This document shows, one piece after another, positions 13,592 through 45,048 of a stretch of 59,417 nt of DNA. This stretch comes from Bacteroidales bacterium (GTDB lineage Bacteria > Bacteroidota > Bacteroidia > Bacteroidales > F082): positions 6,438 through 65,854 of the forward strand of contig JAOZOO010000004.1 of assembly GCA_029933225.1 (NCBI GenBank). Direction: 5' to 3'. Numbering within the stretch: position 1 is the stretch's first letter; every line of letters begins with the position of its first letter. The position numbers were made by a program, and so were the translations under genes. Under the pieces are notes generated by a model that worked only from the letters and a program-made list of their open reading frames with translations, was not told the origin of the DNA and ran no database searches.

Positions 13592-13613
13592 CTTTATTTT
13601 CGGTAAAATGATT

Positions 13614-15263
<1,650 letters not shown>

Positions 15264-15296
15264 TTATTAAATGATTAATTTTAATTCATAAATGTT

Positions 15297-15566: not shown

Positions 15567-15608
15567 AGTAAACAGATTTTTTGGTTATTATTCATGGGTT
15601 TGGGGATT

Positions 15609-15625
15609 TCCATATTTTGTGCCAA
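15609..15625 (-). promoter_or_regulatory. Possible sigma-54-type promoter upstream of groS
   Basis: The minus strand reads TTGGCACAAAATATGGA, against the sigma-54 pattern TGGCAC-N5-TTGC. The -24 half is perfect and the GG-to-GN spacing is right, but the -12 half has TGG instead of TGC. The predicted start is about 15597, 30 nt before the groS ATG. This is a weak, pattern-only call. Confidence 0.25.
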
Positions 15626-15633
15626 ACCGGGAA

Positions 15634-15672
15634 TAAAAAAAAATGTCAGAACGTTTATGACATTCTGACATT
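15634..15672 (-). terminator. Rho-independent terminator after secG
   Basis: On the minus strand AATGTCAGAA (15672-15663), a loop, TTCTGACATT (15651-15642), then a run of about nine U. It separates the lptE-secG operon from groESL. Confidence 0.85.
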
Positions 15673-15698
15673 TTAATGATGAAATAATTTCTTTTTAC

Positions 15699-16076
15699 TT
15701 ATTTGCCTCCCCCTTGCTGGTTTGATTGTCCCTGCGCGGGTTGTCCCTGTGACGGTAACGGCTGGTAATCAACTGGCGCCGGAGCATTTTTTGAGAAATC
15801 TTCGATTTGTTTTTTCAATTGTGAATCCTGCTGGGAAGTGTCAACTATACCCCGCGGGATAACCATTGTTGCTGTCAGGGCAAGTACCAGCAAAGCTACT
15901 GACAGTGTCCAGGTGGCTTTTTCAAGAAAATCGGCTGTTTGCCTGACGCCCATGAACTGCGAGCCGGCACCGGTAAAATTAGCTGCCAGGCCGCCGCCTT
16001 TTGGATTTTGAACCAAAACAATGAGACCGAGCAACACACATACGATCAGGATTAAAATGGATACAAAAAGATACAT
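15699..16076 (-). CDS. secG: Preprotein translocase subunit SecG
   Basis: Small inner-membrane component of the SecYEG channel. From ATG 16076 (125 residues) there are two membrane helices: YLFVSILILIVCVLLGLIVLV and, after the conserved loop QNPKGGGLAANFTGAGSQFMG, TWTLSVALLVLALTATMVI. The C-terminal tail is Gln/Pro/Gly-rich, as is usual in Bacteroidota SecG. The 16-codon-longer frame overlaps the upstream gene and is rejected. Last gene of an operon with the TPR protein (4-bp gap). Confidence 0.93.
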   Translation of the reverse strand: MYLFVSILILIVCVLLGLIVLVQNPKGGGLAANFTGAGSQFMGVRQTADFLEKATWTLSVALLVLALTATMVIPRGIVDTSQQDSQLKKQIEDFSKNAPAPVDYQPLPSQGQPAQGQSNQQGGGK

Positions 16077-16080
16077 CGTT

Positions 16081-17094: not shown

Positions 17095-17107
17095 CGGGCA
17101 CTTTTTA

Positions 17108-17638
17108 TTACCAGTTGACAACGGCTTTATTAAAAATATCAGTAACCAGCATTTCACTGATGGTTACGATCAGATCGCCGGCAATGCTGTTCAGGTCGGC
17201 ATCCGAAGGATAATCGATAAATTCGGTGAATTTTTGTTCGAAATTCTTCTCGGGTTCAAATTTATTGAAATACCGTACGTTTACCGTGATTGTCAGCCGG
17301 TTAAGTGCGGCAGTCTGATTTCCCTGAATGGCAACGGGAGTTGTTTTATAATCCACTATTTCACCGTCAAGAGCCAGGTCGCCGTTGGCATCAACCATGT
17401 TGAGGTTTGCCTCACGGGTGAATTTGTCCCTTAACATATCTGTGAAAGTAGGGCTTAACAGGGGCTGGATCAGTGGCGCCCTGTTCTGAAAGTAAGCCAC
17501 CGAAACGGTTTTGGCCTCCGGCGGCACCGAAGCGCCCGTAAAGGAATATACTCCGCATCCCTCTGACAACAACAGGAAAAGACCGATTAGTGCCGGTAAA
17601 AAATATCTTGTAATATGCCAGTTATTCCGAGTGATCAC
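17108..17638 (-). CDS. lptE: LptE-family outer-membrane LPS-assembly lipoprotein
   Basis: Partner of the LptD translocon that inserts lipopolysaccharide in the outer membrane. 176 residues. A signal peptide ends at a lipobox cysteine (LLSEGCGVYSF, Cys about residue 28). The conserved LptE features 'YSFTGASVPPEAKTVSV' and 'FTDMLRDKFTREANLNMV' follow, then a beta-rich body. The start overlaps the stop of the sigma-54 regulator by 4 nt. The frame ends 13 bp before the TPR gene. Confidence 0.87.
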   Translation of the reverse strand: MITRNNWHITRYFLPALIGLFLLLSEGCGVYSFTGASVPPEAKTVSVAYFQNRAPLIQPLLSPTFTDMLRDKFTREANLNMVDANGDLALDGEIVDYKTTPVAIQGNQTAALNRLTITVNVRYFNKFEPEKNFEQKFTEFIDYPSDADLNSIAGDLIVTISEMLVTDIFNKAVVNW

Positions 17639-18858
17639 CTGATATTGTATTCTTTGATTTTACGATAAAGCGTACGTTCGGAGATACCCAGCTCTTTGGC
17701 AGCGCTTTTTCTTTTGCCGTGATGTTTTTCCAGCGCTTTTTTAATGAGTTCGTTTTCTTTTTCCTGAAGTGAAAGCGATTCTTCCACCACCTCGGTAGGA
17801 TGGAAGGTCTCTTCTTTATCCTCTCCGGGATGGGTGATCTTGATCTCGGGATATTCAGGCTCATCTTTTAAAATAGTGTCCGGGTAGTCTTTAACGAGCA
17901 ACGCCTTTGTTTGCTCGGCAGTGGGCTTGTGCTCTCCCTGTTCCATGAGACCGGCCACGATTTTCTTTAACTCCGTCATGTCTTTTTTCATCTCGAACAG
18001 CACTTTGTAAAGCAATTCCCGTTCCGAAATATGTTGTTCTTCCTTCTTTTGATAGAGAACGGGAAGTTCGGGTGTTTCATTGCCGGGCAGGTATTGTTTC
18101 AGCGTGGCCACATCTATTTCTTTACTTTTCTCAATGATCGAGATTTGTTCGGTCACATTTTTGAGCTGACGGATGTTCCCCGGCCAGTAATAATTTTCGA
18201 GCATATTCACTGCCTCGGGAGTCAGGCGCACAGGAGGCATCCTGTATTTCTCGGCAAAATCGGCAGCAAACTTTCTGAACAACAAATGAATATCTTCTTT
18301 GCGATTACGCAGAGGCGGGATGAAAATGGGAACCGTATTCAGCCGGTAAAACAAATCCTGCCGGAAGTTTCCTTTGGCGATGGCGTCGGGGATGTTTACA
18401 TTGGAAGCCGCCACCATCCTGACATCTGTCTTGATCACTTTGGAGGAACCCACTTTCATAAATTCCCCCGACTCGAGCACACGCAGGAGGCGGACCTGTG
18501 TGGACAAAGGCAGTTCGGCCACTTCATCCAGAAAGATCGTTCCCCCGTCGGCGACTTCAAAATAACCTTTCCGGGCCTCGTGTGCTCCGGTGAAGGAGCC
18601 TTTTTCGTGCCCGAACAGCTCGGAGTCTATGGTCCCCTCAGGGATGGCCCCGCAGTTGACGGCAATGTAATTGTTGTGTTTTCTCGCACTCATCTGATGG
18701 ATGATCTTTGGGAAAACCTCTTTGCCCACACCACTTTCACCGGTGATCAAAACAGTGAGATCGGTTGAAGCCACCTGCACGGCGACTTCAAGGGCTCTGT
18801 TCAGCATGGGTGAGTTGCCGATAATCCCGAACCGTTGTTTTATTGATTGAAGCTCCAT
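17635..18858 (-). CDS. Sigma-54-dependent transcriptional regulator (AAA+/Fis)
   Basis: Enhancer-binding activator of RpoN holoenzyme, 407 residues, with no N-terminal receiver domain. AAA+ features: Walker A GESGVGKE (about residues 40-47), the sigma-54 loop as GSFTGA (canonical GAFTGA with Ala-to-Ser), Walker B TIFLDEV (about 110) and arginine fingers in FRQDLFYRLN. A Fis-type HTH closes the protein (KSAAKELGISERTLYRKIKE, about 383-402). A Glu-rich linker lies between. It heads the operon with lptE, the TPR gene and secG. Without a sensory domain it may be constitutive or controlled by a partner. Confidence 0.93.
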   Translation of the reverse strand: MELQSIKQRFGIIGNSPMLNRALEVAVQVASTDLTVLITGESGVGKEVFPKIIHQMSARKHNNYIAVNCGAIPEGTIDSELFGHEKGSFTGAHEARKGYFEVADGGTIFLDEVAELPLSTQVRLLRVLESGEFMKVGSSKVIKTDVRMVAASNVNIPDAIAKGNFRQDLFYRLNTVPIFIPPLRNRKEDIHLLFRKFAADFAEKYRMPPVRLTPEAVNMLENYYWPGNIRQLKNVTEQISIIEKSKEIDVATLKQYLPGNETPELPVLYQKKEEQHISERELLYKVLFEMKKDMTELKKIVAGLMEQGEHKPTAEQTKALLVKDYPDTILKDEPEYPEIKITHPGEDKEETFHPTEVVEESLSLQEKENELIKKALEKHHGKRKSAAKELGISERTLYRKIKEYNIR

Positions 18859-18911
18859 ATTTTGCCTGTAAATCAGATTTTAAAATTAGTAAATATCACA
18901 AAACCGAAAAA

Positions 18912-21371
18912 CTACCGCAATTCCGCGTTAAGCTTTTGTTCAAACGTCTGCCTGATACGTCTCATGGTCTTGTCAATCACCTTGTCGGTGAGGGTTTTCC
19001 CTTCATCCTGCAGGATGAACGACAGGGCGTAAGATTTTTTTCCTTCCGGGATATTGTCTCCTTCATATACATCAAATAAACCGACTTTTTTCAGGATTCT
19101 CCTTTCGGCTTCAAAGGCCAGTTTTTCCATCTCGCCAAAATGTACCGATTTATCTATGAGCAAAGCCAGATCGCGACGGACAGCAGGGTATTTGGAAACC
19201 GGAGTGTAAACCGTTTCATTGGCGGCATGCATTTTCATCACCTTTTCCCAGTTGAAGTCTGCCATGAATACCTCTTGTTCAATATCGAACCGGCGCAGGA
19301 TTTTTTTACTTAATGCCGTTACCGTGGCTACGGTTGTATTGTCCTTTTGATATTCCAGCCCGTAGGAAAGATTATTCGAGCTGATTTCCCGGATACTCAT
19401 CCCTCTCCGGTCAATGCCCAGTTTACCGAAAATGCTTTCGACGACTCCTTTCAGGAAGTAGAAATCGGTTTTACGGTTGTCGTTATTCCAGTTTTCGGGC
19501 AGGACAGCTCCTGTGGTAAAAACAGCGAGGTGTTTTTCCTCGTGGTATTTCTTCAGCCCTGAATTTTTCTCTTTCGACGGGTCTTTACTGTAAATCTTCC
19601 CGAATTCATACAGCTTCTGGTCAGGGATTTTGTGGTTGATGTTGTAACTGACCACTTCGAGGCCGCCAAACAATAAAGACTGACGCATAACATCGAGGTC
19701 TTTGCTTAACGGATTGAGGAGGGTAACGCTTTTGTTTTCGTCAAAATCTTCATTTTCGATGTAATAGCCCGAACGGGTCAGTGAGTTGTTGATCATTTCC
19801 ACAAAGCCCTGTGCTGTCAACTGATCGGAGATCAGGTTCTGGACTTTTTCGGGATCGGGCTTCTGGCGGTAACTCACCGAAGCATCAATCTTGTCTTCAA
19901 ATTCCACATTGTTGTAACCGTAAACGCGGAGGATTTCCTCGATGACATCGGCCTCGCGTTTTACATCCACTTTGAAGGTGGGGATCAGCAGTTTCATCCC
20001 CTCATCAGTTTCTTCCAGCACTTCAATTTCCAGGTCGGTCAGGATGTCTCTGATGATGTCCCTGCCGATGACTTTGCCGATCAGGCGGTCAACATTTTTA
20101 TAGGTGATGTCCACCGTCCATTTTTCAATTTTTTCGGGATAGACATCTTTGATTTCGGAAGATATTTTCCCGCCTGCAATTTCTTTGAAAAGCATGGCCG
20201 CCCGTTTCAGGGCAAAAAGGGTCATTTCGGGATCGGCGCCCCGCTCGAAACGGAAAGAGGCATCTGTCTGCAATCCGTGACGCTTGGAGGTTTTACGAAT
20301 ATGTGCCGGGTCGAAGTAAGCACTTTCCAGGAAAATGTTGGTGGTCTGTTCGGTTACGCCGGAATCCAGCCCGCCGAACACCCCGCCGATGCACATGCTA
20401 TCTTCGGTATTGCAGATCATCAGGTCGTCAAAGGCCAGTTTTCTTTCCACACCATCCAGTGTGACAAAGGGAGTGCCTTCCGGCATTTTCTTCACAACCA
20501 CCTTGTTGCCTTTGATCTTGTCGGCATCAAAAGGGTGGAGGGGCTGGCCGGTTTCATGCAGGATGTAGTTAGTGATATCCACAATGTTGTTGATGGGCCG
20601 CAGTCCGATGGCATTGAGCTTGTTTTTCAGCCAGTCAGGGGATTCCTCAACCTTAACACCTGACAGGGTGACGCCCGAATATCGCGGGCAGGCTTTGGAA
20701 TCTTCCACAACAACCTCAATATCAAGGGAAGTGTCATCCACTTTAAAATCTTCAACCGACGGCAGATGAAGCTTGTATTTCCGGGTATTTTTCAGCCGGT
20801 TCAGTCCGGCAGCCACATCCCTTGCCGAGCCGATATGCGAAGCGGCATCGGCGCGGTTGGGGGTCAGGCCGATCTCATAAACGTAATCTTCTTCAATCCT
20901 GAAATAATCAGCAGCCGGTGTGCCGGGTTGTAGTTTATCGGGTAGCACCATGATGCCTTCGTGTGATGTGCCCAGCCCCAGTTCGTCTTCTGCGCAGATC
21001 ATCCCTTCCGAGACGGCCCCGCGGATTTTGGCTTTTTTGATGGTGAATGATTCTTCTTCAGAATACAAGATGGTGCCCACGGTAGCCACGGGAACGGTCT
21101 GCCCGGCAGCCACATTGGGCGCACCGCAAACAATAGGCAGGATTCGGCCACCACCCACATCCACGGTAGTAATGCTTAATTTGTCGGCATCGGGGTGTTT
21201 CTCACAGGTCAGCACTTTGCCGATAACCACGCCTTCCAGTCCTCCTTTTACCGACTGAAACTTTTCAAAACCTTCCACTTCCAGTCCGATGTTTGTCAGA
21301 ATGTCAGAAAGCTCCAACGGCTCCACATCAATGTCCACATATTGTTTCAGCCAGTTATATGATAATTTCAT
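18912..21371 (-). CDS. pheT: Phenylalanyl-tRNA synthetase beta subunit
   Basis: Beta chain of the alpha2-beta2 enzyme charging tRNA-Phe. 819 residues, normal for the bacterial beta chain. N-terminal KLSYNWLKQYVD, an EMAP-II-like tRNA-binding domain (about residues 40-150), the B3/B4 editing domain (GLTPNRADAASHIGSARD onward), the B5 domain, the catalytic-like core and a C-terminal FDX-ACB anticodon-binding domain (SKYPAVRRDLALLIDK, about 722-737). pheS is not adjacent. Own promoter box at 21401-21408. Confidence 0.97.
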   Translation of the reverse strand: MKLSYNWLKQYVDIDVEPLELSDILTNIGLEVEGFEKFQSVKGGLEGVVIGKVLTCEKHPDADKLSITTVDVGGGRILPIVCGAPNVAAGQTVPVATVGTILYSEEESFTIKKAKIRGAVSEGMICAEDELGLGTSHEGIMVLPDKLQPGTPAADYFRIEEDYVYEIGLTPNRADAASHIGSARDVAAGLNRLKNTRKYKLHLPSVEDFKVDDTSLDIEVVVEDSKACPRYSGVTLSGVKVEESPDWLKNKLNAIGLRPINNIVDITNYILHETGQPLHPFDADKIKGNKVVVKKMPEGTPFVTLDGVERKLAFDDLMICNTEDSMCIGGVFGGLDSGVTEQTTNIFLESAYFDPAHIRKTSKRHGLQTDASFRFERGADPEMTLFALKRAAMLFKEIAGGKISSEIKDVYPEKIEKWTVDITYKNVDRLIGKVIGRDIIRDILTDLEIEVLEETDEGMKLLIPTFKVDVKREADVIEEILRVYGYNNVEFEDKIDASVSYRQKPDPEKVQNLISDQLTAQGFVEMINNSLTRSGYYIENEDFDENKSVTLLNPLSKDLDVMRQSLLFGGLEVVSYNINHKIPDQKLYEFGKIYSKDPSKEKNSGLKKYHEEKHLAVFTTGAVLPENWNNDNRKTDFYFLKGVVESIFGKLGIDRRGMSIREISSNNLSYGLEYQKDNTTVATVTALSKKILRRFDIEQEVFMADFNWEKVMKMHAANETVYTPVSKYPAVRRDLALLIDKSVHFGEMEKLAFEAERRILKKVGLFDVYEGDNIPEGKKSYALSFILQDEGKTLTDKVIDKTMRRIRQTFEQKLNAELR

Positions 21372-35664: not shown

Positions 35665-37530
35665 TTATAAATTCAATGCCAGGTGATAAGCGTTGGCAAT
35701 GGCTTCCTGTGCTTTTCCCGGTTTTTCGGCATCGCCCACAATGTGAATGGGGATTTTTCCGGCCAGTTCATTTTTCAGCTCATCCACCGGTTTCATGCCG
35801 GTTGCCATTACGATTTTATCAATTCCTTCCAGTTGACTTATCTCGCCCTCTTTTTCAATGGTCACCGTAGAGTTTTTTATTTCAACGACTTTGGTGTTTA
35901 AATAGACGGGAACGTTCTTCTGTTTCAGTTTCTGGAGGGTCATTTTCTTCTCCAGCATTTCCATACCGCGGGCTATTTCACCCAGCATTTCCACAATGAT
36001 CACTTTGTTGTGCAGGTCAACCAGCTTACTGGCCATTTCAATGCCGATAAGCCCGCCGCCGACAACCAGGATGTTTTGGTTTTCGGGCAGGTTATCCTCC
36101 TCAAGGAAATCAGCCCAGTAATAGGTTTTCATTCCTTTGATGGGCGGGATGGCAGGAACTGCACCCGTAGCGATGATCACCTCGTCATAATCCTTACCCA
36201 CCAGTTTTTCCGGTGTTGCTTTCTGGTGAACCACGACAACACCGTTTTCTTTAAGCTCTTCTTTGAAATAATCGACGATTTCTTTCAGACTCTCTTTCTT
36301 GGGCGGGAGCCAGGCAAGGTTAAACTGTCCGCCCAGCTTATTTTTCTCGAAAACCGTTACTTCATGTCCCCGTTTTTTCAGCGTAATGGCGGCTTCCATG
36401 CCTGCCAGCCCGCCGCCGGCGATGGCAAAATGTTTCTTCTCTTTTGCGGGTTTAAGGATTTTTTCCTTTTCGTGCCCCACAATGGGATTAACCACACAAC
36501 CCAGGCCCATGCCGCTTTTTACGCCACCAAGGCAGCCCTCGGAACAGGCGAGGCAGGGGCGGACATTTCCTTTCACCTTATGCAGATATTTTCCGGCAAA
36601 ATCAGGATCGGCGACCAGGGCCCTGCCGAGGCCGATGTAATCGGCGTGATATTCATTTAGCAACAGATCGACGTCTTTGCGCGAGTTGATCCGGCCCACA
36701 AAGATCACGGGCAGGTCCACCTCTTTTTTCAGGCGGGCTGCCAGTTCCCAGGTTTTTCCTTTGGGGACAAACATGTGCTGGAAGAACCACGGGGGTGTGG
36801 AACAGGCCGTCCCGGCCGTAACATGAATAGCAGCAACACCTTTGTCTTTTAAGATTTTTGAAAAACGGATCATGTCTTCAATATGAAAACCGTTGGGAAT
36901 CATCTCGTCACCACTGATACGAACGATAACGGGAAGCCTGGTGATTTGTAAAACGGCATCCAGCACCTCAAGCGGGAATTTGATCCGGTTTTCGAAACTG
37001 CCGCCATATTCGTCAGTGCGGGTGTTTACTGCCGGAGAAATGAACTGCGCCATCAGATAACCGTGGCCAAACTGCAGTTCGATAATATCGAATCCCGCAC
37101 TTTCAGATCTTCGTGCAGCATCACGGAAAAGCGCAATGACCTGATCCATATCATTGCGGTTCATCGCTTTTGGTGTAGCTCCCCCGTTCTCACAGGCCTT
37201 GTCAACGGATGACAAGAAATAGTTCCCCGGTAATTTCGGGTTGGCCATTCTGCCCGGGTGGTTCAGGTGGGCAACGGCCTTTGCTCCGTTCTTGTGCACG
37301 GTTTCGTTGAGAATTTTAAGCCCTTCGAGCTTATCGTCGGCATCAATGCCCAGTTGTGTGGGCAGCTCCCGCAGACCTTTGTCGAGATACAACGGTTCAT
37401 AAGTTACAGCGCCCATGTTTTTGGAACGGGCATCATAAAAATTGATGTGTCTTTGATTGACTTTGCCGTCGCCGGTGGCATAGCCCAGCTTGACAGGGGC
37501 AAAGATGAATGGGTTATTAAGTGTTATCAT
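35665..37530 (-). CDS. Old-yellow-enzyme/FAD oxidoreductase (2,4-dienoyl-CoA reductase-like)
   Basis: 621 residues, three parts. An FMN-binding TIM barrel (about 1-325) begins NNPFIFAPVKLGYATGDG and contains LQFGHGYLMAQFISPAVN. A 4Fe-4S site follows, formed by CLACSEGC and a further Cys in LGCVVNP (about 331-355). The C-terminal half has FAD-binding IAGGGLAGMEAA (about 373) and NAD(P)-binding ILVVGGGLIGIEMA (about 475). This is the FadH/trimethylamine-dehydrogenase architecture. The natural substrate is unknown; enoates or dienoyl-CoA are family precedents. It is transcribed alone. Confidence 0.9.
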   Translation of the reverse strand: MITLNNPFIFAPVKLGYATGDGKVNQRHINFYDARSKNMGAVTYEPLYLDKGLRELPTQLGIDADDKLEGLKILNETVHKNGAKAVAHLNHPGRMANPKLPGNYFLSSVDKACENGGATPKAMNRNDMDQVIALFRDAARRSESAGFDIIELQFGHGYLMAQFISPAVNTRTDEYGGSFENRIKFPLEVLDAVLQITRLPVIVRISGDEMIPNGFHIEDMIRFSKILKDKGVAAIHVTAGTACSTPPWFFQHMFVPKGKTWELAARLKKEVDLPVIFVGRINSRKDVDLLLNEYHADYIGLGRALVADPDFAGKYLHKVKGNVRPCLACSEGCLGGVKSGMGLGCVVNPIVGHEKEKILKPAKEKKHFAIAGGGLAGMEAAITLKKRGHEVTVFEKNKLGGQFNLAWLPPKKESLKEIVDYFKEELKENGVVVVHQKATPEKLVGKDYDEVIIATGAVPAIPPIKGMKTYYWADFLEEDNLPENQNILVVGGGLIGIEMASKLVDLHNKVIIVEMLGEIARGMEMLEKKMTLQKLKQKNVPVYLNTKVVEIKNSTVTIEKEGEISQLEGIDKIVMATGMKPVDELKNELAGKIPIHIVGDAEKPGKAQEAIANAYHLALNL

Positions 37531-37562: not shown

Positions 37563-37688
37563 CCCTAAAGCCCGCCTGACCGGACGGGCAGGGACGGGGT
37601 AACTGATTTATTTCATTAACCCCCTCTGTCCTTCGGACATCCCCGCCTGACTGACACAGTCGGGCAGGTCCCCCGAAGGGGGAGAAAT
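37563..37688. repeat. Dispersed GC-rich repeat, copy 1
   Basis: Contains CCCTAAAGCCCGCCTGAC, CGGGCAGGG and GGGTAACTGATTT, which recur with few changes at 43252-43312. A second inverted block, CCCGCCTGACTGACACAGTCGGGCAGG, and CCCCCTCTGTCC...CCCCCGAAGGGGG palindromes follow. No coding potential. Confidence 0.7.
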
Positions 37689-37757: not shown

Positions 37758-38435
37758 TCAGTTTCCCGGTTTTTTGGGGCCGGGTATATTCGCTTTCAGC
37801 AATCTCACGTATTTTTTAAAATAAAAGTCTTCATTAAAATCATCAAACCCAAAGGTTTTCAGTATTTCTTTCCAGTCGCGTTCCACGTAATCAAACGCAT
37901 ATTTACATTCAATGGTTTTGAACACAAAACGATGGAATGCCGGTATTTCATTCAGTTTGAATTCCCCGAAATCAAGAATAATGAATGCTCCACCCGGTTT
38001 CAGATGATTCCGTGCATTTTCAATCACTGTTTTTCTCACCTCATGCGGAAAACCATGTATGACAAAACTGATAAATACTTTATCAAATTTTTTATTCAAG
38101 TCAAATTCCTCGTCAATGCGGCTTTGAATGAATGTCGCTCTTTTGTCGTCTTTGAACCGTTCATTAAATTGATCTCCCATGATCTCCGAGAGGTCCATTC
38201 CGGTTACCGAGCCTTTCTCGTTAAGATAAGCCAGCATCAATTCAGCATTTCGCCCTGTTCCGCAACCCAAATCCAGAATGTCATCATCCGGCCGGATTTC
38301 CATGTGACGTATCGCCTTGTGGATAAACCCTTTGTAAAGGCCGAATGAAGCCGTGTTTATGACTTTGTCATAATTTTTTAAAACGAACGGGCTTAACTCA
38401 ACTCCTGAATCGGGATATATCTTTTCTCTTTTCAT
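37758..38435 (-). CDS. Class I SAM-dependent methyltransferase
   Basis: 225 residues with a Rossmann-like methyltransferase fold. Motif I is ILDLGCGTGRNAELML (about residues 52-67), acidic loop MDLSEIMG (about 79), post-motif KVFISFVIHGFP (about 117) and LKPGGAFIILDFGEF (about 142). The substrate is unknown. Its start overlaps the MFS gene's stop by 4 nt, so it is the last gene of the array beginning at 41032. The final residues (PKKPGN) and stop codon lie in a sequence that matches the dispersed repeat at 43325-43364, so the C-terminus seems to be repeat-derived. Confidence 0.85.
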   Translation of the reverse strand: MKREKIYPDSGVELSPFVLKNYDKVINTASFGLYKGFIHKAIRHMEIRPDDDILDLGCGTGRNAELMLAYLNEKGSVTGMDLSEIMGDQFNERFKDDKRATFIQSRIDEEFDLNKKFDKVFISFVIHGFPHEVRKTVIENARNHLKPGGAFIILDFGEFKLNEIPAFHRFVFKTIECKYAFDYVERDWKEILKTFGFDDFNEDFYFKKYVRLLKANIPGPKKPGN

Positions 38436-39655
38436 TTCTTACAATTCAATTTATGAATAAAAAACAACGACAGCAAAACAATAACAATATATATGATGAA
38501 AAACGGCTGAAAACCAAACTGTTTAATGATCCAGCCTCCTGCCAGCGGGAAGATAGCAGGCAGAATGTTCCCCGCACCGGAGATGCCTGTGTAAAGTGCC
38601 CGGTTTTCATTACCCGATACCTCCAGCAAGACGCCATTCATAGTAATACCATAAATGGCAAAAACGATTCCTCCGATAAAAAACAAAAATCTGAACGGGT
38701 ACAATGTGGACGAAAATATAACCACTATGGGAATGATCACAGCGAGAAAAACATTACTGTAAAGCAGGTAACGGTATTTGTATTTTCCCATCAGGGCAAA
38801 CAGCAGCAAACCGGTAGCCACACTTCCGATGACTTTGAACAGGAGGAAAAAACCGGTATCGGCGCTTTGGGTATGGAAATTTTCTTTTGCATAAAGAATA
38901 ATAAAAGGAAGCAATCCAATGCTGATTCCCTGGGTGTTGATAAATCCGAGGAAATAACCCAGCCGGCCGTTTTCTTTCAACTCCACCCTGATCAGTTCGA
39001 GAAAATGTTTCGGGTTTTTTACGGTCAGTTTTGAGGGGATAACTTCTTTCAGACTCCAGAAGCCCAGCGATGCAACAAACAGGGAGGCAAAGCCGACAAA
39101 AAACATGTAGCTGTAGTTTATGGGATAACCGGTGATGGTCAGCACTTTTTTGGCCAGCAAAGCGGAAATAAACAAAATGGTTCCCGTAATCACCTGTCTG
39201 ATAGAGAAGAAAGGCTTCCGTGATTTCATATTTATGGATTTGCCGAGAATGTCAGTATAACTGATGTTGGCAAAAGCCCCGCCAAGCGAAAAAACAGTGA
39301 TCACAATAAAAATCAGCCAGATGGCATACCGGCTGTCGAGTTGCATGTAATAAAAAAGAATGATACTTAAAGCCAGCAGCGAGAGAATCCTCGAATTGAT
39401 GCCCAGCAGCAGAAATTTCTTTTTATGCGAATAATTGCTGATGAACGGGGCAAAAATTAACTGGGTGAAACTGGAGCCACCCAGCATGATGGCGGTCATG
39501 ATGCCGATCTGCACCGACTTTCCGCCTGCATCCACCAGCATGGCCGGGATGACCGTGTCCACATCAATAAAACTACGGGCAAAAGCCAAAAAGCTCGCAT
39601 GCCAGATCAGCGAATATAAATTGTGGTTTGATATTTTCTTTGTCAGTACAGTCAT
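38432..39655 (-). CDS. Major facilitator superfamily transporter
   Basis: 407 residues with about twelve hydrophobic segments, typical of MFS. Recognisable points are the first helix region 'SLIWHASFLAFARSFIDVDTVIPAML', the helix 2 segment 'GIMTAIMLGGSSFTQLIFAPFIS' and the basic loop SNYSHKKK, which corresponds to the usual helix 2-3 motif. It overlaps its neighbours by 4 nt on both sides, so it is tightly coupled to the mini radical-SAM gene and the methyltransferase. The transported compound is unknown. Context suggests a metal, cofactor or methylated product of this array. Confidence 0.86.
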   Translation of the reverse strand: MTVLTKKISNHNLYSLIWHASFLAFARSFIDVDTVIPAMLVDAGGKSVQIGIMTAIMLGGSSFTQLIFAPFISNYSHKKKFLLLGINSRILSLLALSIILFYYMQLDSRYAIWLIFIVITVFSLGGAFANISYTDILGKSINMKSRKPFFSIRQVITGTILFISALLAKKVLTITGYPINYSYMFFVGFASLFVASLGFWSLKEVIPSKLTVKNPKHFLELIRVELKENGRLGYFLGFINTQGISIGLLPFIILYAKENFHTQSADTGFFLLFKVIGSVATGLLLFALMGKYKYRYLLYSNVFLAVIIPIVVIFSSTLYPFRFLFFIGGIVFAIYGITMNGVLLEVSGNENRALYTGISGAGNILPAIFPLAGGWIIKQFGFQPFFIIYIVIVLLSLFFIHKLNCKK

Positions 39656-39954
39656 CGAACAAACCTGCGTACGTAATAATTTTTCCCCCGGAAAACGGTT
39701 TTGGGCAAAAATCCTTTTTCGATCAAACGGTTGACCCCATCAAAATCTTTGCCTGATTTTTCCAACAATCCCTTCACTGCATCTTCGCTGAATAGTTCAT
39801 CCGGCAAATAAAACACCTGTCTTTCCAACTGCATCCTGACCGCTTTGCCCACCTGGCAATAAATAAAGGAGTAGGTGCAGTCTTTATGCGGGATGTCATT
39901 GACCCCGATGCTCTTGCCTAACCTGCGCAACGGAACCGGACCAAATACTTTCAT
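39652..39954 (-). CDS. Truncated 'mini' radical-SAM-like protein
   Basis: 100 residues. The first 45 match the N-terminus of a family of about 300-residue radical-SAM proteins: FGPVPLRRLGKSIGVNDIP, then CTYSFIYCQVG. The cluster loop C-x3-C-x2-C is altered: the middle Cys is Phe. The text then jumps to what looks like the C-terminal winged-helix tail of the same family (EDAVKGLLEKSGKDFDGVNR ... GKNYYVRRF). The whole SAM-binding barrel is absent, yet the frame is intact and overlaps its neighbours by 1 and 4 nt. It is either a repurposed small protein or decay after an in-frame deletion. It is not expected to be catalytic. Confidence 0.6.
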   Translation of the reverse strand: MKVFGPVPLRRLGKSIGVNDIPHKDCTYSFIYCQVGKAVRMQLERQVFYLPDELFSEDAVKGLLEKSGKDFDGVNRLIEKGFLPKTVFRGKNYYVRRFVR

Positions 39955-40394
39955 TATCTTCTTTTATCGTCAATGGAAAGTTTTAAAATTCCTTTATCAA
40001 TACGGAACAGGCGATGGTTTTCCCTGTGGCTGATCATTTCGTCTTCCAACCATTTGATGTGTTGCCGCAAGACCTCAATGACTTCATCGGGAGTTTCTTT
40101 TGTGATGATCACCGGGATAAACTGCTCATTGACCATGGTGATGTTCTTGCCGAATTGCTTGGATACAAGGATATTGACATCGTGATCTTTCAAAAAAGCA
40201 ATGATTGCTTTTCCCTTTTTCGGCAAACCGTGTGCATTTTCATCGTACTGCAGTTTGATTTTATTTTCAAGTTTGTTAATCAGATTAATGTCGTCCCCGT
40301 CAATCTCATAAATTAAAAATTGATCGGCATCGCCAAAGTGCTTCTTTTCAAAATGGGTTTTTTTGTTCACTGCAAATGCAAAACGTAGTTTCAT
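39954..40394 (-). CDS. NifX/ORP-like (dinitrogenase FeMo-cofactor family) protein, extended
   Basis: 146 residues. The N-terminal 100 match the NifB/NifX/NafY cofactor-binding fold: RFAFAVNKK at the first strand, KHFGDADQFLIYEI in place of the usual HFGxAxxF motif, and AIIAFLKDHDVNILVSKQFG for the helix-strand pair. A C-terminal extension of about 45 residues (VIEVLRQHIKWLEDEMISHR and a basic end) is not part of the core fold. Family members carry or sense metal-sulfur clusters. It overlaps the upstream methyltransferase and the downstream mini radical-SAM gene. Confidence 0.75.
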   Translation of the reverse strand: MKLRFAFAVNKKTHFEKKHFGDADQFLIYEIDGDDINLINKLENKIKLQYDENAHGLPKKGKAIIAFLKDHDVNILVSKQFGKNITMVNEQFIPVIITKETPDEVIEVLRQHIKWLEDEMISHRENHRLFRIDKGILKLSIDDKRR

Positions 40395-41032
40395 ATCTTT
40401 TTGATTTTGGTTCCTTTGATCACGATAAAACTCCCCTTACCGTATCCTTTTTCGGGTTGTTGAATTTCGCGGATGTCCGAAAGATCGCCAAAAAGAGTCT
40501 GGACGGTTCCGGTTATCTCAAAACCCGCATGACGAAGATAATTCATTATTTCGGGTGTGCTGAAAAAAACAGCGTGTTTGTAAAAAATGTTGTCCTCTTT
40601 AATTTTTTGATAAAACCTGCCAATCCGGCTGTCTTTGTCCACATATCCGATAATTACACTGCCGTTGTTTTTTAAGATGCGGTGTATTTCTGTTAGTGAT
40701 CTTTCCACGTTGTCCACAAAACAAATGGTAGTCACCATCAGGGCAAAGTCGAAGCTGTTATCCGGATACGGAAGATTTTCAGCGACCCCGGTTTTTGTTT
40801 CGATGCCTTTTTCTCCGGCTATTTTAAGCATGGCTTCCGAAGGATCAACGCCTTCTTTTACCCCAAGCGGACCGGCAAATCTTCCTGTGCCCACACCAAT
40901 TTCAATGCCTCTTCCCGTTTTGGGAACAAGATTTTCAAGTGCCAGTAATTCCGACTGATATGCCGGTTTGTTGTCAGCAAACCATTGCTCATACAAGCCG
41001 GTATATTGATCGAAAGGATCTGTTGTGGACAT
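40391..41032 (-). CDS. Class I SAM-dependent methyltransferase (type 11)
   Basis: 213 residues. Motif I is GIEIGVGTGRFAGPLG (about residues 41-56), followed by GVDPSEAMLKIA (about 59), LPYPDNSFDFALMVTTICFV (about 86) and LKNNGSVIIGYVDKDS (about 121), all of Methyltransf_11 type. The substrate is unknown. Methyltransferases of this type often neighbour NifX/ORP-family genes in anaerobes. It is the first gene after an internal promoter candidate (41070-41103) and overlaps the downstream NifX-like gene by 4 nt. Confidence 0.85.
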   Translation of the reverse strand: MSTTDPFDQYTGLYEQWFADNKPAYQSELLALENLVPKTGRGIEIGVGTGRFAGPLGVKEGVDPSEAMLKIAGEKGIETKTGVAENLPYPDNSFDFALMVTTICFVDNVERSLTEIHRILKNNGSVIIGYVDKDSRIGRFYQKIKEDNIFYKHAVFFSTPEIMNYLRHAGFEITGTVQTLFGDLSDIREIQQPEKGYGKGSFIVIKGTKIKKI

Positions 41033-41069
41033 GTCTTGTTATTTTTTAAGCTTCATCACTTTTAAAAAA

Positions 41070-41103
41070 CAAATTTAATTCAACTACCTAAAAAATCAGC
41101 AAA
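41070..41103 (-). promoter_or_regulatory. Internal promoter of the second module
   Basis: The minus strand has TTTG at 41103-41100, a 22-nt spacer and TAAATTTG at 41077-41070. It lies in the only sizeable gap (99 bp) between the ATPase pair and the methyltransferase, and would allow the 41032-37758 genes to be expressed separately. The spacer is a little longer than usual. Confidence 0.45.
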
Positions 41104-41131
41104 TAAATATCCATTATTGATATGAACCGTT

Positions 41132-42022
41132 TTATTTTGTTACCTCAGCGTATGCTGTTTTTGCCACGTTTTCCCATATTTCTTTGATCATTTTTGAGAG
41201 GGCAGAGGCAGGCTTGAACTCCACAATTGTTTTTTCATGCAACATGGCCTCAACCATTACTGTGTCAAAGGGTATTCTCGCCAGCAATTGAATGGAATTC
41301 TCTTCGAGGTATTTCTCAATTTCTTTTGTCACCCCGGTGTTGATATCGTATTTATTGATCACGGCAAACATTTCGGGTTCAAAATTACGTGCCAGGTCCA
41401 CGAGTCGTTCAATATCGTGAAGCCCGGATTTTGTGGGTTCAATAACCATCAAAACTTTGTGTGTTCCTGTCAGCGCCGAGATTACGGGACATCCGATTCC
41501 GGGAGGGCCGTCGGTGATCACAAACCGGGCGCCCGTCTCTTTGGCAATTTCCATTGCTTTTTTCCGGACTTCGGTGACCAGCTTACCTGAGTTTTCTTCT
41601 CCGGCGCCCATCCGGGCATGAACCAGTGTGCCAAAGCGGGTATTGGAGACATACCAGAAATTATTGTTGTTTTTTTCGGAATGGATCGCGCCGACAGGAC
41701 AGATGCGCTCACACAACCGGCATCCTTCACACTGAAAGGGATTGATCTCTAATCCGCCGAAAGGCTTGTAATGAATGGCATCGAACCGGCAGTATTCCAC
41801 GCATTTGCTGCACCGGGTACAGTTGTCATCGTCGATCTTTGCCACGTAGTTGCTTTCAAACCGGTGTTCTTCAAGAATTTCCGGTTTCAGGATCAGGTGC
41901 ATATCGGCAGCATCCACATCGGCATCACAAAAAACGGCATCACGGGCCACTGACGCCAGGGCAGCAGCAATGGTCGTTTTGCCGGTGCCTCCTTTTCCAC
42001 TCAACAAGGTGATCTCATGCAT
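41132..42022 (-). CDS. MinD/Mrp-type P-loop ATPase with ferredoxin insert (B)
   Basis: About 296 residues. Deviant Walker A SGKGGTGKTTIAAAL near the N-terminus, Switch II-like ITDGPPGIGCPVIS (about residue 170). A two-cluster ferredoxin domain is inserted at about 70-110: CTRCSKCVEYCRF and CEGCRLCERICPVG, each with the C-x2-C-x2-C-x3-C pattern for 4Fe-4S. This architecture is that of the two ATPases in the orange-protein complex of Desulfovibrio, where they support cell-division-related functions. It starts 8 nt inside its paralogue's end. ATG 42022 was chosen because the protein then begins MHEITLLSGKGG. Confidence 0.88.
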   Translation of the reverse strand: MHEITLLSGKGGTGKTTIAAALASVARDAVFCDADVDAADMHLILKPEILEEHRFESNYVAKIDDDNCTRCSKCVEYCRFDAIHYKPFGGLEINPFQCEGCRLCERICPVGAIHSEKNNNNFWYVSNTRFGTLVHARMGAGEENSGKLVTEVRKKAMEIAKETGARFVITDGPPGIGCPVISALTGTHKVLMVIEPTKSGLHDIERLVDLARNFEPEMFAVINKYDINTGVTKEIEKYLEENSIQLLARIPFDTVMVEAMLHEKTIVEFKPASALSKMIKEIWENVAKTAYAEVTK

Positions 42023-42893
42023 AATCACTTACTTTTTCTTTTAGGTCCTGGACAATTTGCCTGTAAATATTTTCCATTTTTTCAGGGATGTGCGATAGTA
42101 ACTCACCCCGTGCATAACCGGAAGCATACTTTTTATCGAAAGGTATCTCGCCGATCAGTTCTATGTCTTCTTTTTCCAGATAATCATAAACATCGCGGTT
42201 TCCCAGGCCGGCTTTGTTTACGATCACACCGAAAGGTTTCTCCAGTTCCCTCAACAGGTCCACCGTGAGTTTCAGGTCGTGCAGTCCGAAAGGGGTGGGT
42301 TCCGTAACAAGGATGATGTAGTCGGCATCTGCTGTGGTGGTAACCACCGGGCAACTGGTTCCGGGAGGAGCGTCATACAGGATCACTTCCGCATTGTTTA
42401 CCGGTTCTTTTTTCACAATCTTGATCAGCGAGGTCTGCATGGCCGAGCCGATTTTCAGCAGCCCTTCAACGATTACTGCCTGTTCGTCCACCGCATATTT
42501 CCTGATTTTTCCGATGGAATAGGGTTTTTCTATGATGGCATCATCCTGGCAGGCCACAAGACAGGCTCCGCAGGAATGGCACAGGCTGGGGTTAATCTCC
42601 GCAAATTTCACCGGCGGGATGACCACAATGGCGTTGAACTCACAATATTCAACACACTTTCTGCAAAAAGTACATTTGTCGGTGATAATTTCGGGTACCG
42701 GTAAGGTGGCCTCCTTTTCTGAAAGAAGTTTTGCGCCGGGAAAGAAGATCAGGTCGTTGGGCTCTTCCACATCGCAATCCACCAGTGCGACCCGGCTGGT
42801 CCATGACTGCCGGATAAAATGAAAGAGATTGACTGAAACTGTAGTTTTTCCCGTTCCCCCTTTTCCGCTCGCTATGGCTATCTTTAGAGGCAT
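42015..42893 (-). CDS. MinD/Mrp-type P-loop ATPase with ferredoxin insert (A)
   Basis: About 292 residues from ATG 42893, which is one base past the preceding NifX stop. Walker A is SGKGGTGKTTVSVNLF; the DCDVEEPND segment matches MinD Asp motifs. The ferredoxin insert is CTFCRKCVEYCEF ... CHSCGACLVACQD (about residues 68-115). Switch II is DAPPGTSCPVVT (about 188). It is paralogous to its downstream neighbour. Tandem pairs of such ATPases are the hallmark of orp-type operons. The nine-codon-longer frame to 42920 overlaps the NifX gene and is not used. Confidence 0.88.
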   Translation of the reverse strand: MPLKIAIASGKGGTGKTTVSVNLFHFIRQSWTSRVALVDCDVEEPNDLIFFPGAKLLSEKEATLPVPEIITDKCTFCRKCVEYCEFNAIVVIPPVKFAEINPSLCHSCGACLVACQDDAIIEKPYSIGKIRKYAVDEQAVIVEGLLKIGSAMQTSLIKIVKKEPVNNAEVILYDAPPGTSCPVVTTTADADYIILVTEPTPFGLHDLKLTVDLLRELEKPFGVIVNKAGLGNRDVYDYLEKEDIELIGEIPFDKKYASGYARGELLSHIPEKMENIYRQIVQDLKEKVSDYA

Positions 42894-42894
42894 A

Positions 42895-43230
42895 TCAGTG
42901 GTCACATTTGTTTTCATCAACGGTCAACTTGTTGTTGAGGTAATCATTTACCAGTTCATCCGCCTTTTTTTGCCTGGCGCCAATGTGTACCCTGATGTTG
43001 TTGGCTTTAAAAATATTCACTGCCTGCGGGCCGATCCCGCCGACAATAACATCGGTAACGCCAATTTCTGACAGAAACCGCGGGAATGTTCCGGGTTGAT
43101 GCGGCGGTGCATCAATAACCGTATCCGAGACAATCCGTTTTTCTTCCACAGCAATCAATGCAAATTGCCGGGTATGACCAAAGTGGTTGTTCATGATCCC
43201 GTTTTCGATTGGTATTGCAAATATTTTCAT
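42895..43230 (-). CDS. NifX/ORP-family protein with C-terminal CDH
   Basis: 111 residues from ATG 43230. The fold core is KIFAIPIENG, NHFGHTRQFALIAV (cluster-associated HFG motif, about residues 15-28), and GVTDVIVGGIGPQAVNIFKANNI (about 58-80). The C-terminus ends KCDH, a Cys/His pair recurring in this subfamily. Members bind iron-molybdenum or Mo-Cu-type sulfide clusters in the best-studied cases. It sits immediately before the two MinD-type ATPases, and upstream lies a 240-bp repeat-containing gap. Confidence 0.85.
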   Translation of the reverse strand: MKIFAIPIENGIMNNHFGHTRQFALIAVEEKRIVSDTVIDAPPHQPGTFPRFLSEIGVTDVIVGGIGPQAVNIFKANNIRVHIGARQKKADELVNDYLNNKLTVDENKCDH

Positions 43231-43251
43231 GGTATTGTTGTTAAGCCCCAA

Positions 43252-43364
43252 CCCTAAAGCCCGCCTGACTGACGCAGTCGGGCAGGGGCTGGGTAGCTGA
43301 TTTGTTTCATTACATTATCTTTTCTTCGCTGTCAGTTTCCCCGTCCTTTAGGGCGGGGATATCT
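43252..43364. repeat. Dispersed GC-rich repeat, copy 2
   Basis: CCCTAAAGCCCGCCTGACTG, CGGGCAGGG and GGGTAGCTGATTTGTTTCATTA match copy 1 at 37563-37618. Further on, TTCGCTGTCAGTTTCCC (43325-43341) matches the end of the 37758 methyltransferase gene. CCCCGTCCTTTAGGGCGGGG (43340-43359) is a hairpin. Confidence 0.7.
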
Positions 43365-43390
43365 CTCTCTGATATTTAATACAAACAAGG

Positions 43391-43449
43391 CCGTCTCAAA
43401 GGCGGACTTCCTGTTTTTACGGGGAAAGTCCGTCTATTGAGATAGCCCT
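43391..43449 (-). terminator. Long hairpin downstream of the DUF5320 gene
   Basis: Nested complementary arms: GGCCGTCTCAA against TTGAGATAGCC, and CGGACTTCC against GGAAAGTCCG. It begins about 20 nt after the DUF5320 stop (minus strand). Only a mixed U-rich stretch (TTGTTTGTATT) follows, so it could be an attenuating terminator or a repeat element. It splits the operon between the DUF5320 and NifX genes. Confidence 0.5.
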
Positions 43450-43471
43450 TCTTGTTCAAAGAACGGGAAGA

Positions 43472-43675
43472 TTAACGACGGTGCCACCAGCCCCGGCCCC
43501 AGCCGCGACCTCTGCCTCTTCCTCCGCCGAATCCGAATCCGAACCCTCTTCCGCGAGGGAAGTCATCTTCAGGAGCTTCGGGATTGGTCTTCACTTCATC
43601 GTCTTTGCATCTTCCTAATCCTCTTCCGGTGCGGGGACCTTCGCCCCGCGGTCCGGTACCATCAAATCCTGGCAT
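43472..43675 (-). CDS. DUF5320-type small protein
   Basis: 67 residues. The N-terminus PGFDGTGPRGEGPRTGRGLG followed by RC is the DUF5320 signature. The C-terminal half is Arg/Gly/Phe/Trp-rich (GRGFGFGFGGGRGRGRGWGR). Such proteins are found almost only next to NifX/ORP, MinD-ferredoxin and DUF134 genes, as here. Function unknown. The single cysteine and basic Gly-rich tail could suit nucleic-acid or cluster binding, but that is speculation. Confidence 0.82.
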   Translation of the reverse strand: MPGFDGTGPRGEGPRTGRGLGRCKDDEVKTNPEAPEDDFPRGRGFGFGFGGGRGRGRGWGRGWWHRR

Positions 43676-43697
43676 AATAGACCTCCTTTCATTATGT

Positions 43698-44267
43698 TTA
43701 AATACCTAATATTTTTGCGTCCACAAAAAATTCAGTGTGGACGTTCACGTCATAATCCGATAATATCAGTTCATCGGTTACCGTGGTCAGCTCCAGTTGA
43801 AATGAATCCAGTTTAATGTAATCCTTCAAATCATCCGAAGCTGTTTCAAGTTCAAGTGTATTACCCACGCTGTTGTCAATATCCTCTTTCCAGGCAATCA
43901 GCTTTTTGTCCAAACCCTCGGCATTGATATAAATCTTAATGGATTTCAAAAAGCTGAAGTCCTTATTCTGGTCAGGGTCAAGTAACAGCACCATCTTTTT
44001 CAATACGATCTCCTCAATCAGATCTTTTCTCGTATCGTTTATTTCAAAAGTCTGCTCCGAATTGGTTTTGATGTTCGGAGTGATGATATTGAAAGGCACA
44101 TTAACCCCGATCGTTGAAGGAATGGTGATGGTTTCATCATAACTCATATTGAAGTGTGTCAGCTTATCAATCTCTTTACAACCTGTTATTGAAAACAGAA
44201 AGAGAATAAGCGTAAGCGATGTTGCTCCCGTAATTTTAAAAAGCCGGTTTGTGTTCCTGAATATCAT
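43698..44267 (-). CDS. Predicted lipoprotein of unknown function
   Basis: 189 residues. The N-terminal signal LFKITGATSLTLILFLFSITGC ends in a lipobox cysteine (about residue 30), predicting an outer- or inner-membrane lipoprotein. The rest is beta/alpha without a family I recognise (TINVP-like strands, LLLDPDQNKDFSFLKSIKIYI, LDSFQLELTTVTDELILSDY). It lies within the DUF134-NifX-DUF5320 operon, 12 bp after the NifX gene and 22 bp before the DUF5320 gene. Envelope proteins are not usual members of this cluster, so it may be a recent insertion or a lineage-specific partner. Confidence 0.7.
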   Translation of the reverse strand: MIFRNTNRLFKITGATSLTLILFLFSITGCKEIDKLTHFNMSYDETITIPSTIGVNVPFNIITPNIKTNSEQTFEINDTRKDLIEEIVLKKMVLLLDPDQNKDFSFLKSIKIYINAEGLDKKLIAWKEDIDNSVGNTLELETASDDLKDYIKLDSFQLELTTVTDELILSDYDVNVHTEFFVDAKILGI

Positions 44268-44279
44268 CCTTTTTATGAT

Positions 44280-44594
44280 TTATCTGATACTGTCAATTAT
44301 TTCCTGAATGGTTCTGTTGTCATCCGGAAGGATCACCATCTGGATGTTGAACCGTTCCAGCAGGTCTTTGGCCTTGGGGCCAAAATCGCCGGAGATCACT
44401 TTTTTCGCTCCCCATTCCACAACCTGTTCGGCTGTTTTTACACCTGCGCCGCTGTGTGCCGCGGTGTTCGGGTTGGGGTAGAATGTTGCTTTTTTTGTGT
44501 TTTCGTCGTAAAGGCAAAAATATTTTGCTCTTCCGAATCGCAGATCAAATTTTGAACTCAATTGATCGCCTGTTGATGTGATTACTGTTTTCAT
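44280..44594 (-). CDS. NifX/ORP-family protein
   Basis: 104 residues, nearly the length of orange protein. It begins KTVITSTGDQLSSKFDLRFG, with RFGRAKYFCLYD at the cluster-motif position and GAGVKTAEQVVEWGAKKVIS followed by GDFGPKAKDLLERFN in the second half, all standard for the family. It is the first structural gene after the DUF134 regulator (4-bp gap). The best-studied relative, from Desulfovibrio gigas, holds a Mo-Cu sulfide cluster non-covalently; whether this one does is not known. Confidence 0.86.
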   Translation of the reverse strand: MKTVITSTGDQLSSKFDLRFGRAKYFCLYDENTKKATFYPNPNTAAHSGAGVKTAEQVVEWGAKKVISGDFGPKAKDLLERFNIQMVILPDDNRTIQEIIDSIR

Positions 44595-44598
44595 TTTT

Positions 44599-45006
44599 TT
44601 ATTTATTTCTTAATGGTTTAATTTCTGTTGATTTACACATGGGGCAATGTCCGTTGCCTCCTTGTGCCGGGACGGTGAACCGTGCATGGCATTCATTGCA
44701 TTCAAACCAGTTTTTTTCGAGATATGCATTGCCAAAAACCGTGATGATCTCTTTGGACTCAACCAGTGCATGGGCTATTTTCCTGCGGGCACTTTCGTAG
44801 ATCCTGGCAAAAGTTGCACGGGACACAGCCATCAGTTCCGATGCTTCCTGATGATTCATCAAGTCGTAATCAGCAAGCTTTATCGCTTCATATTCTTCAT
44901 AAAGCAACTCCACCTTGCTGCGGTTTCTTCCGGGATGGCCATAGGGCCTGTATCCCCTGAATTTAGGGGGTTCCACAACTCTTCTTAATCTTCTTCTTCT
45001 CGGCAT
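44599..45006 (-). CDS. DUF134-family DNA-binding protein with zinc ribbon
   Basis: 135 residues. Opens PRRRRLRRVVEPPKFRGYRP, as in all DUF134 proteins. A sigma-70-region-4-like HTH follows (LMNHQEASELMAVSRATFAR, about residues 49-68). The C-terminus adds a zinc ribbon, two Cys pairs CNEC and CPMC (about 101-104 and 121-124). It is the probable regulator of the NifX/MinD array and lies first in the operon. The perfect palindrome next to its -7 box is the natural candidate for its binding site. Confidence 0.88.
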   Translation of the reverse strand: MPRRRRLRRVVEPPKFRGYRPYGHPGRNRSKVELLYEEYEAIKLADYDLMNHQEASELMAVSRATFARIYESARRKIAHALVESKEIITVFGNAYLEKNWFECNECHARFTVPAQGGNGHCPMCKSTEIKPLRNK

Positions 45007-45024
45007 CCCTTTTTAAATTTTTTG

Positions 45025-45048
45025 CAAATATAATGAGAATATTCTCAT
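45025..45048 (-). promoter_or_regulatory. Promoter and 16-bp palindromic operator of the DUF134/NifX operon
   Basis: Minus-strand -7 box TATATTTG (45032-45025). Abutting it is the perfect palindrome ATGAGAATATTCTCAT at 45033-45048, which occupies the spacer where a repressor would block polymerase. There is no clear -33 TTTG, so an activator is also possible. The DUF134 start codon is at 45006. Confidence 0.65.

Follow-up and report, generated by a model that had tools for sequence, protein, structure and literature searches.

A gene cluster of the orange protein (ORP) type, followed by a second set of genes, was analysed in a 59,417-nucleotide (nt) stretch of a Bacteroidales genome (the window, G000:C47:6438-65854; genome 3.68 Mb, 92% complete). 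All the genes under study lie on the minus strand, from 45006 down to 37758 in the list of open reading frames (ORFs). The first half ends with two MinD-type ATPases, MinD1 and MinD2. The second half carries an extended protein of the NifX fold (NifXext, 39954..40394), a class I S-adenosylmethionine (SAM) methyltransferase (MTb, 37758..38435) and a major facilitator superfamily (MFS) transporter (38432..39655). We conclude with high confidence that this second half is a real module linked to the orp genes. The data support a core of NifXext, MTb and an exporter, which is either MFS or ArsP_2, with a second methyltransferase (MTa, 40391..41032) as an optional member. The gene content, order and overlaps could be read directly, and both halves, together with much of their neighbourhood, were conserved in other families.

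Conservation and linkage of the second half

The survey of the order covered 198 sampled genomes including the own one (197 without it), with relatives of MinD2 counted at E 1e-50 and those of MTb at 1e-30. In the same genus (JAADID010000194.1, locus L023), MinD2 was followed after 11 nt by NifXext, after a further 41 nt by MFS, then by MTb, which overlaps MFS, and by an old yellow enzyme (OYE) gene. The earlier note had held the second half to be chance adjacency if it stood next to NifX or MinD genes in no other genome, and the 11-nt MinD2-NifXext junction of L023 is such a neighbourhood. Eleven genes were shared at 74-93% protein identity, while MTa, the small gene at 39652-39954 and a lipoprotein gene of the first half were missing from L023. 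For the 11 genes common to both genomes, nonsynonymous divergence (dN) was 0.03-0.18 compared to synonymous divergence (dS) of 0.5-2.5. The gene identities of G226:C325 were the same as those of L023. In another family (G176:C32), NifX1, the lipoprotein, DUF5320, NifX2, MinD1 and MinD2 were followed 8.5 kb further on by NifXext, MFS and MTb on the same strand.

Long NifXext proteins were found in 8 of the 197 other genomes, each from a different family; this set leaves out six genomes with shorter or more distant NifX proteins (G044, G053, G066, G096, G155 and G171). Orthologues of MTb at 58-67% identity were present at 10 places in 9 other genomes of 9 families, not counting two distant genomes at 32-33% identity (G009, G127), and all 10 loci were tallied. 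At each of them a gene of the recurrent neighbourhood set lay within 225 nt on the same strand. NifXext was located within 1.3 kb of MTb in four loci, and an exporter within 650 nt in six (MFS in three; ArsP_2 in three, there within 210 nt), while both exporter types never occurred together within 8 kb. MTa lay 2 nt from MTb in one locus and 1.5 kb away in another. At 6 of the 10 MTb loci, a MinD gene or one with a NifX domain stood no more than 8 kb away. Of the proposal that five genes travel together, the linkage of NifXext, MTb and MFS stood in several families, but no fixed five-gene unit was seen, MTa being optional and the radical-SAM gene a remnant. Set genes were present within 8 kb at seven of the eight other long NifXext loci, with MinD genes within 8 kb in three (G062, G098, G103) and at 8.5 kb in G176. 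As a separate observation, a stand-alone archaeal-type threonyl-tRNA synthetase (ThrRS) editing domain (ThrED) was located within 350 nt of MTb in five loci (L031, L025, L038, L071 and L080).

Hypergeometric tests conducted without the own genome revealed co-occurrence of NifXext with MTb (five shared genomes, from 8 and 9 of 197; p 2.8e-6), of MTb with MFS (p 3.8e-5) and of NifXext with MFS (p 5e-4). When the own genome was included, MinD2 was present in all 9 long-NifXext genomes compared to 71 of 198 overall (p 7e-5), in 15 of 19 MTa genomes (p 7e-5) and in 8 of 10 MTb genomes (p 0.005); with the six shorter or more distant NifX genomes added to the long set, it was present in 14 of 15.

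Several results weigh against so close a linkage. A MinD gene lay within 8 kb of MTb in only two of the 10 loci (G050, G098), and at four (G056, G076, G083:C250, G153) no MinD or NifX-domain gene above threshold was found within that distance; the genomes G056 and G076 contained no MinD2 match at all. NifXext was present in only two of six genomes of the genus, own included, and its locus in G159 had no set gene within 8 kb. Co-occurrence was weak for MTa with MTb (p 0.038) and with NifXext (p 0.027), at chance for MTa with MFS (p 0.69), and borderline for MinD2 with MFS (8 of 13 MFS genomes; p 0.047); all these tests treat genomes as independent and ignore phylogeny. Leaving the own genome aside, the neighbourhood tallies covered MTa in 13 of its 18 genomes (13 of 20 places) and MFS in 9 of its 12 genomes (9 of 13 places). 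A set gene was found within 8 kb at nine of the 13 MTa loci (DsrE alone in G154) and was lacking at four; therefore, MTa was regarded as an optional partner. For MFS, the corresponding numbers were five and four of nine, three of the latter four being stretches shorter than 9 kb; apparent dedication to the module was limited to the closer relatives of MFS. The recurrent set and the score thresholds behind these tallies were picked from the tallied loci themselves, with no random-locus control.

In the phylum sample of 374 other genomes, MTb was not found at 1e-50 among the matches listed, with up to eight candidates scored per genome; thus, MTb has been seen only in this order. The second half is apparently undescribed so far. 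No description of it was recognised in the accessible parts of the open-licence PMC literature, which is weak evidence of absence, and the part available of a study on iron stress that mentions DUF134 (PMC10434189) contained nothing on this cluster.

Genes of the two halves

The ORFs named in the earlier note were found at their minus-strand positions, and Pfam analysis recovered the DUF134, DUF5320, NifX, CbiA/ParA with Fer4, methyltransferase and MFS_1 domains assigned to them. The described overlaps of 1-4 nt in the second half were likewise measured, at -4 (MTa/NifXext), -1 (NifXext/small gene), -4 (small gene/MFS) and -4 nt (MFS/MTb).

NifXext matched PF02579 at 5.3e-13. A C-terminal extension of approximately 35 amino acids (aa) was conserved, with W115, E119, F130, G135 and K138 invariant in 10 sequences. 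The protein keeps the HFGDAD region and contains no cysteine, as read from the sequence, and its identity outside the genus was 42-51%. An AlphaFold model built from six sequences reached a predicted local distance difference test score (pLDDT) of 70 in the best of five models, the others reaching 51-53. The best structural matches of this model were the NifEN-bound NifX (9ian_F) and NafY (1p90), followed by archaeal and Thermotoga homologues and TM1816, with structural matches at 18-22% identity. A profile search against solved structures gave no relative by sequence at E 0.1.

MTb was assigned to Methyltransf_25 (1.6e-19), with relatives in 12 of the 198 genomes, own included. Its identity outside the genus, 57-66%, was above that of NifXext, and His127, His131, His168 and Cys177 were invariant besides the SAM motif. 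The structure predicted from two sequences had a pLDDT of 43 and was too poor to use. MTa, also of class I, matched Methyltransf_11 (2.5e-18) and the solved structure 1vlm_A (2.1e-68), with relatives in 19 of the 198 genomes, own included. We take 1vlm to be TM1293 of Thermotoga maritima, whose locus tag is three from that of the NifX-family protein TM1290 (1rdu); this would be the same pairing of NifX and methyltransferase in another phylum.

The transporter matched MFS_1 (PF07690) at 9e-22, with 77.9 bits against a gathering cut-off of 33.4. Its homologues at 66% identity (G052) and 57% (G176) are located beside NifXext and MTb. The ArsP_2 exporter of locus L031 matched PF11449 at 5e-38 and the 'arsenic efflux' family NF037962 with 151.6 bits (cut-off 100).

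The gene next after MTb (35665..37530, minus strand) codes for a 621-aa OYE/NADH:flavin oxidoreductase with a flavin adenine dinucleotide (FAD) domain (Oxidored_FMN, 7.1e-53). For its relatives in other genomes, the distance to NifXext was 43 nt in G062 and 76 nt in G103, and the distance to MTb was 3.8 kb in G083 and 4.6 kb in G153, there on the opposite strand. The OYE/FAD enzyme probably belongs to the module, and the unit may run past 37758 into it. The intergenic space just after MTb also holds a palindromic repeat, CCCGCCTGACTGACNCAGTCGGGCAGG, at 37642-37668, which recurs within the orp half at 43260-43286; 10 copies were found genome-wide at up to two mismatches, compared to none for a reversed control.

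The small gene at 39652..39954 had been taken for a mini radical-SAM enzyme, and this view had to be given up. Residues 1-57 align with the start of radical-SAM proteins of about 310 aa (best 61%, over 2-67), and residues 58-98 align with about positions 270-312 of these proteins. This second alignment was obtained with all 10 proteins tested, each time at a score that none of 300 shuffles reached. The roughly 210 codons between these N-terminal 57 and C-terminal 43 residues are missing, and the CxxxCxxC motif has Phe in place of its middle Cys. Since a cluster cysteine is replaced and the core is missing, the product cannot be a usual radical-SAM enzyme. It had no Pfam or NCBIfam match. Of the matches listed for 198 genomes of the order and 60 of the family, none besides itself spanned the full query; the rest were confined to its N-terminal part and came mostly from frames of 250-360 aa, with some shorter ones. 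A functional mini radical-SAM protein was rejected on these grounds. A full-length gene of the same type lies 6 nt from MTa in G040, and a different radical-SAM gene lies 24 and 23 nt from MTa in G103 and G102; a full-length radical-SAM relative had no solved structure match at 0.001. As judged from these alignments, the gene is best read as the in-frame deletion remnant of a former MTa partner, with frame and overlaps preserved.

An internal promoter had also been proposed in the 99-nt gap between the halves (41033..41131, minus strand), and it could not be established. The Bacteroidetes-type promoter pattern had one match in the gap, at 41070-41103, while the window held five matches against 2.9 expected, a number reached by 18 of 100 shuffles. 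In a scan for sigma-70 signals, neither promoter-like (11 versus 13.4 expected) nor terminator-like sites (11 versus 9.6) were in excess, and L023 has no 99-nt gap between the halves.

The first half is headed by a DUF134 DNA-binding-type regulator (44599..45006; PF02001, 3.6e-22; 92% identity in L023). NifX1 (44280..44594), an ORP-like one-domain Nitro_FeMo-Co protein, matched PF02579 at 1.2e-12 and the solved ORP structure 2wfb at E 2.6e-7, the third-ranked solved match behind 1eo1 and 1rdu. It is followed by a lipoprotein (43698..44267), recognised by eye from its lipobox and absent from the earlier gene list. This gene had no Pfam match and no counterpart in L023, and it can be regarded as an orp companion; its 52% homologue in G176:C32 (L084:9649-10236) lies between NifX1 and DUF5320. 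Next come the glycine/arginine-rich small DUF5320 protein (43472..43675; PF17253, 3.4e-13) and NifX2 (42895..43251; PF02579, 3e-16), whose likely ATG start was placed by eye at 43230. NifX2 resembles the DiNase domain of MrpORP, as it scored 106 bits on NF041136 (cut-off 450) over model positions 263-365 only, and it matched the TM1816-type structure 1o13 at 2.4e-10. The half closes with MinD1 (42015..42920; CbiA, 6e-18) and MinD2 (41132..42028; CbiA, 7.3e-12). Both ATPases have a CbiA/ParA domain by Pfam and two Fer4 stretches, which correspond to two 4Fe-4S motifs, in MinD1 likened to Orp3/4.

The domains, the 2wfb match and the MinD2 relatives in 71 of 198 genomes bear out the proposed orp type of the first half, and its predicted products support an assignment to the known orp kind of cluster. 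Around MinD2 relatives the order DUF134-NifX1-DUF5320-NifX2-MinD1-MinD2 recurs, with variations. Three NifX/ORP proteins had been reported for the cluster; three NifX-domain proteins were indeed present, but that total already includes NifXext. The fourth of the genome lies on contig C29, and a fused MrpORP appears to be absent because all four NifX-domain frames found are short (109-160 aa).

Contig C29 (positions 1-20000, L067) carries a second orp-like locus of the same genome, with VOC, a full-length 312-aa radical-SAM protein, a DUF5320-like protein, NifX, CGGC, an NAD(P)HX repair enzyme and a small 'rubredoxin-like' protein named by eye, with no Pfam match. Elsewhere, the gene for a protein of about 640 aa was found repeatedly next to MinD, MTb or MFS genes (L084:3912-5852, L068:8849-10747, L073:1464-3398, L144:5682-7565). 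This protein combines ferredoxin, DUF1858, DUF2249 and NMT1-like regions and matched no NCBIfam family at 1e-10.

Proposed mechanism and alternative explanations

The whole is tentatively read as a metal-sulfur gene cluster of the ORP type with a conserved accessory module attached, which would methylate a metal-sulfur or metalloid compound and then export it; we place this reading somewhat short of probable. In this scheme, a thiometalate or metal-sulfur cluster may be held or loaded by the NifX/ORP proteins and the ferredoxin-containing ATPases of the MinD type, and NifXext would bind a species of this kind. From that pool, MTb could methylate a small ligand or a metal(loid) compound, together with MTa in genomes that have it. 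The inner-membrane exporter, MFS here and ArsP_2 in other genomes, might then remove the methylated product. The OYE/FAD enzyme may supply electrons, and a radical-SAM reaction, which some relatives seem to couple to MTa, would have been lost here, leaving the gene remnant. A modified and exported product becomes more plausible because the ArsP_2 protein, a heavy-metal exporter by annotation, sits beside MTb or near NifXext elsewhere.

Taken in full, this mechanism is rather doubtful. Its broadest form we consider unlikely: ORP/NifX proteins, a dedicated methyltransferase and an interchangeable exporter (MFS/ArsP_2) would methylate and expel metal(loid)-sulfide species, as a homeostasis or detoxification system of anaerobes with its own NifX-type carrier. 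The substrates of all the module proteins are putative. MTb has only remote solved relatives, and MFS has none at E 0.01. The ArsM cut-off of 263 (PRK11873) was far from reached by MTb (35.7 bits) or MTa (28.3 bits), and both ArsP_2 and 'arsenic efflux' are annotation names. If the reading is true, the little-understood ORP complex, whose Mo-Cu cluster is not known to have a function, would gain a chemical role. A NifX-fold carrier, a well-conserved methyltransferase and a metal-type exporter would be concrete candidates for what the complex handles.

Given how mixed the wider surroundings are, the strongest rival is a loose grouping of genes with no single pathway. Shared regulation and transfer would collect genes that help under anaerobic, redox or metal stress around the orp genes, with MTb, MFS and NifXext doing separate jobs; this is possible, and leans towards the improbable. 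The surroundings include a damage-control phosphatase, the ThrRS-type editing domain, TrmO, KaiC, AmmeMemoRadiSam, CGGC, cytochrome bd oxidase, FeS_assembly_P, BtuR, VOC and MBL, and the gene order is reshuffled from genome to genome. However, the pairs NifXext-MTb and MFS-MTb (4 and 3 of 10 loci, at the distances given above) lie close together on the same strand in several families, and they share genomes more often than chance would predict.

A role in storing or repairing Fe-S or metal sulfide, or in assembling cofactors, would make NifXext a store or carrier like IssA or NifX, with methyltransferase and exporter secondary; in a variant, NifXext would serve the synthesis of molybdenum cofactor, a function suggested for the Archaeoglobus NifX/CbiA genes. 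Storage and variant together are quite improbable. The predicted fold of NifXext matches NifX, NafY and TM1816, and parallels exist in the available text of two studies: IssA has a NifX domain and stores thioferrate (PMC8351635), and in Archaeoglobus the genes AF2378-AF2380, which show high expression, were attributed to iron-molybdenum cofactors (PMC3949148). The neighbours in G176 also include genes for FeS_assembly_P and cytochrome bd. Such a role is less easily reconciled with a cysteine-free NifXext, and it leaves the linkage to MTb and an exporter unexplained.

We regard as very unlikely a function in tRNA or translation quality control, by which MTb and the radical-SAM proteins would act on RNA alongside TrmO and the ThrRS-type editing domain, their neighbours in other genomes. 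The five MTb loci with ThrED within 350 nt come from four genomes, and TrmO or TrmO-like genes recur; however, the exporter and the NifX proteins would be unexplained, and in the cluster analysed here neither ThrED nor TrmO was seen. That unrelated genes came to lie behind an orp cluster by chance is highly improbable: the gap with its possible promoter before MTa, the absence of some members from most genomes and some stand-alone relatives speak for it, whereas the adjacency is kept in other families, and a genome of the same genus has the 11-nt junction. In the case of NifXext, MTb and MFS, chance was judged unlikely in view of the conserved neighbourhoods and co-occurrence. Nitrogenase cofactor biosynthesis, suggested by the NifX-domain proteins, is close to refuted, as NifXext scored 26.7 bits on the NifX equivalog TIGR02663 (curated cut-off 112) and the nitrogenase-type family PF00148 had no match in the 92%-complete genome, in a search positive in 4 of 14 control genomes; a nitrogenase role for NifXext is therefore very unlikely.

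Comparison with known systems

According to the available part of PMC6345978, the ORP complex of Desulfovibrio vulgaris Hildenborough consists of Orp3, Orp4, the [2Fe-2S] protein Orp5, Orp8 and Orp9/MrpORP, putatively takes part in cell division, and has MrpORP as the protein that matures its Fe-S proteins. MinD1 and MinD2, each with two [4Fe-4S] motifs, resemble Orp3 and Orp4 as described there. NifX1 is a one-domain DiNase protein of the Orp8 type (2wfb, 2.6e-7), and NifX2 resembles the DiNase domain of MrpORP, whereas no Mrp-DiNase fusion (Orp9) is present here. The ORP complex is encoded by divergent sigma-54 operons, while the present cluster lies on one strand headed by DUF134 (sigma-54 sites were not scanned). 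The lipoprotein, DUF5320 and the NifXext-MFS-MTb-OYE genes are not among the five ORP proteins named in that part of PMC6345978.

Compared to the NifX/NafY chaperones of FeMo-co, NifXext is alike in its predicted fold and Pfam domain; it differs in its own extension of about 35 aa, in a score below the equivalog cut-off and in a genome with no PF00148 protein. Arsenic systems pair methylation by ArsM with export by ArsP. MTb and MTa are not ArsM by score, the exporter in this cluster is of the MFS type, and the cluster ORFs and family matches show no conspicuous ars regulator or reductase. The likeness lies in the arrangement, with a methyltransferase located beside an ArsP_2-type exporter at 3 of the 10 MTb loci.

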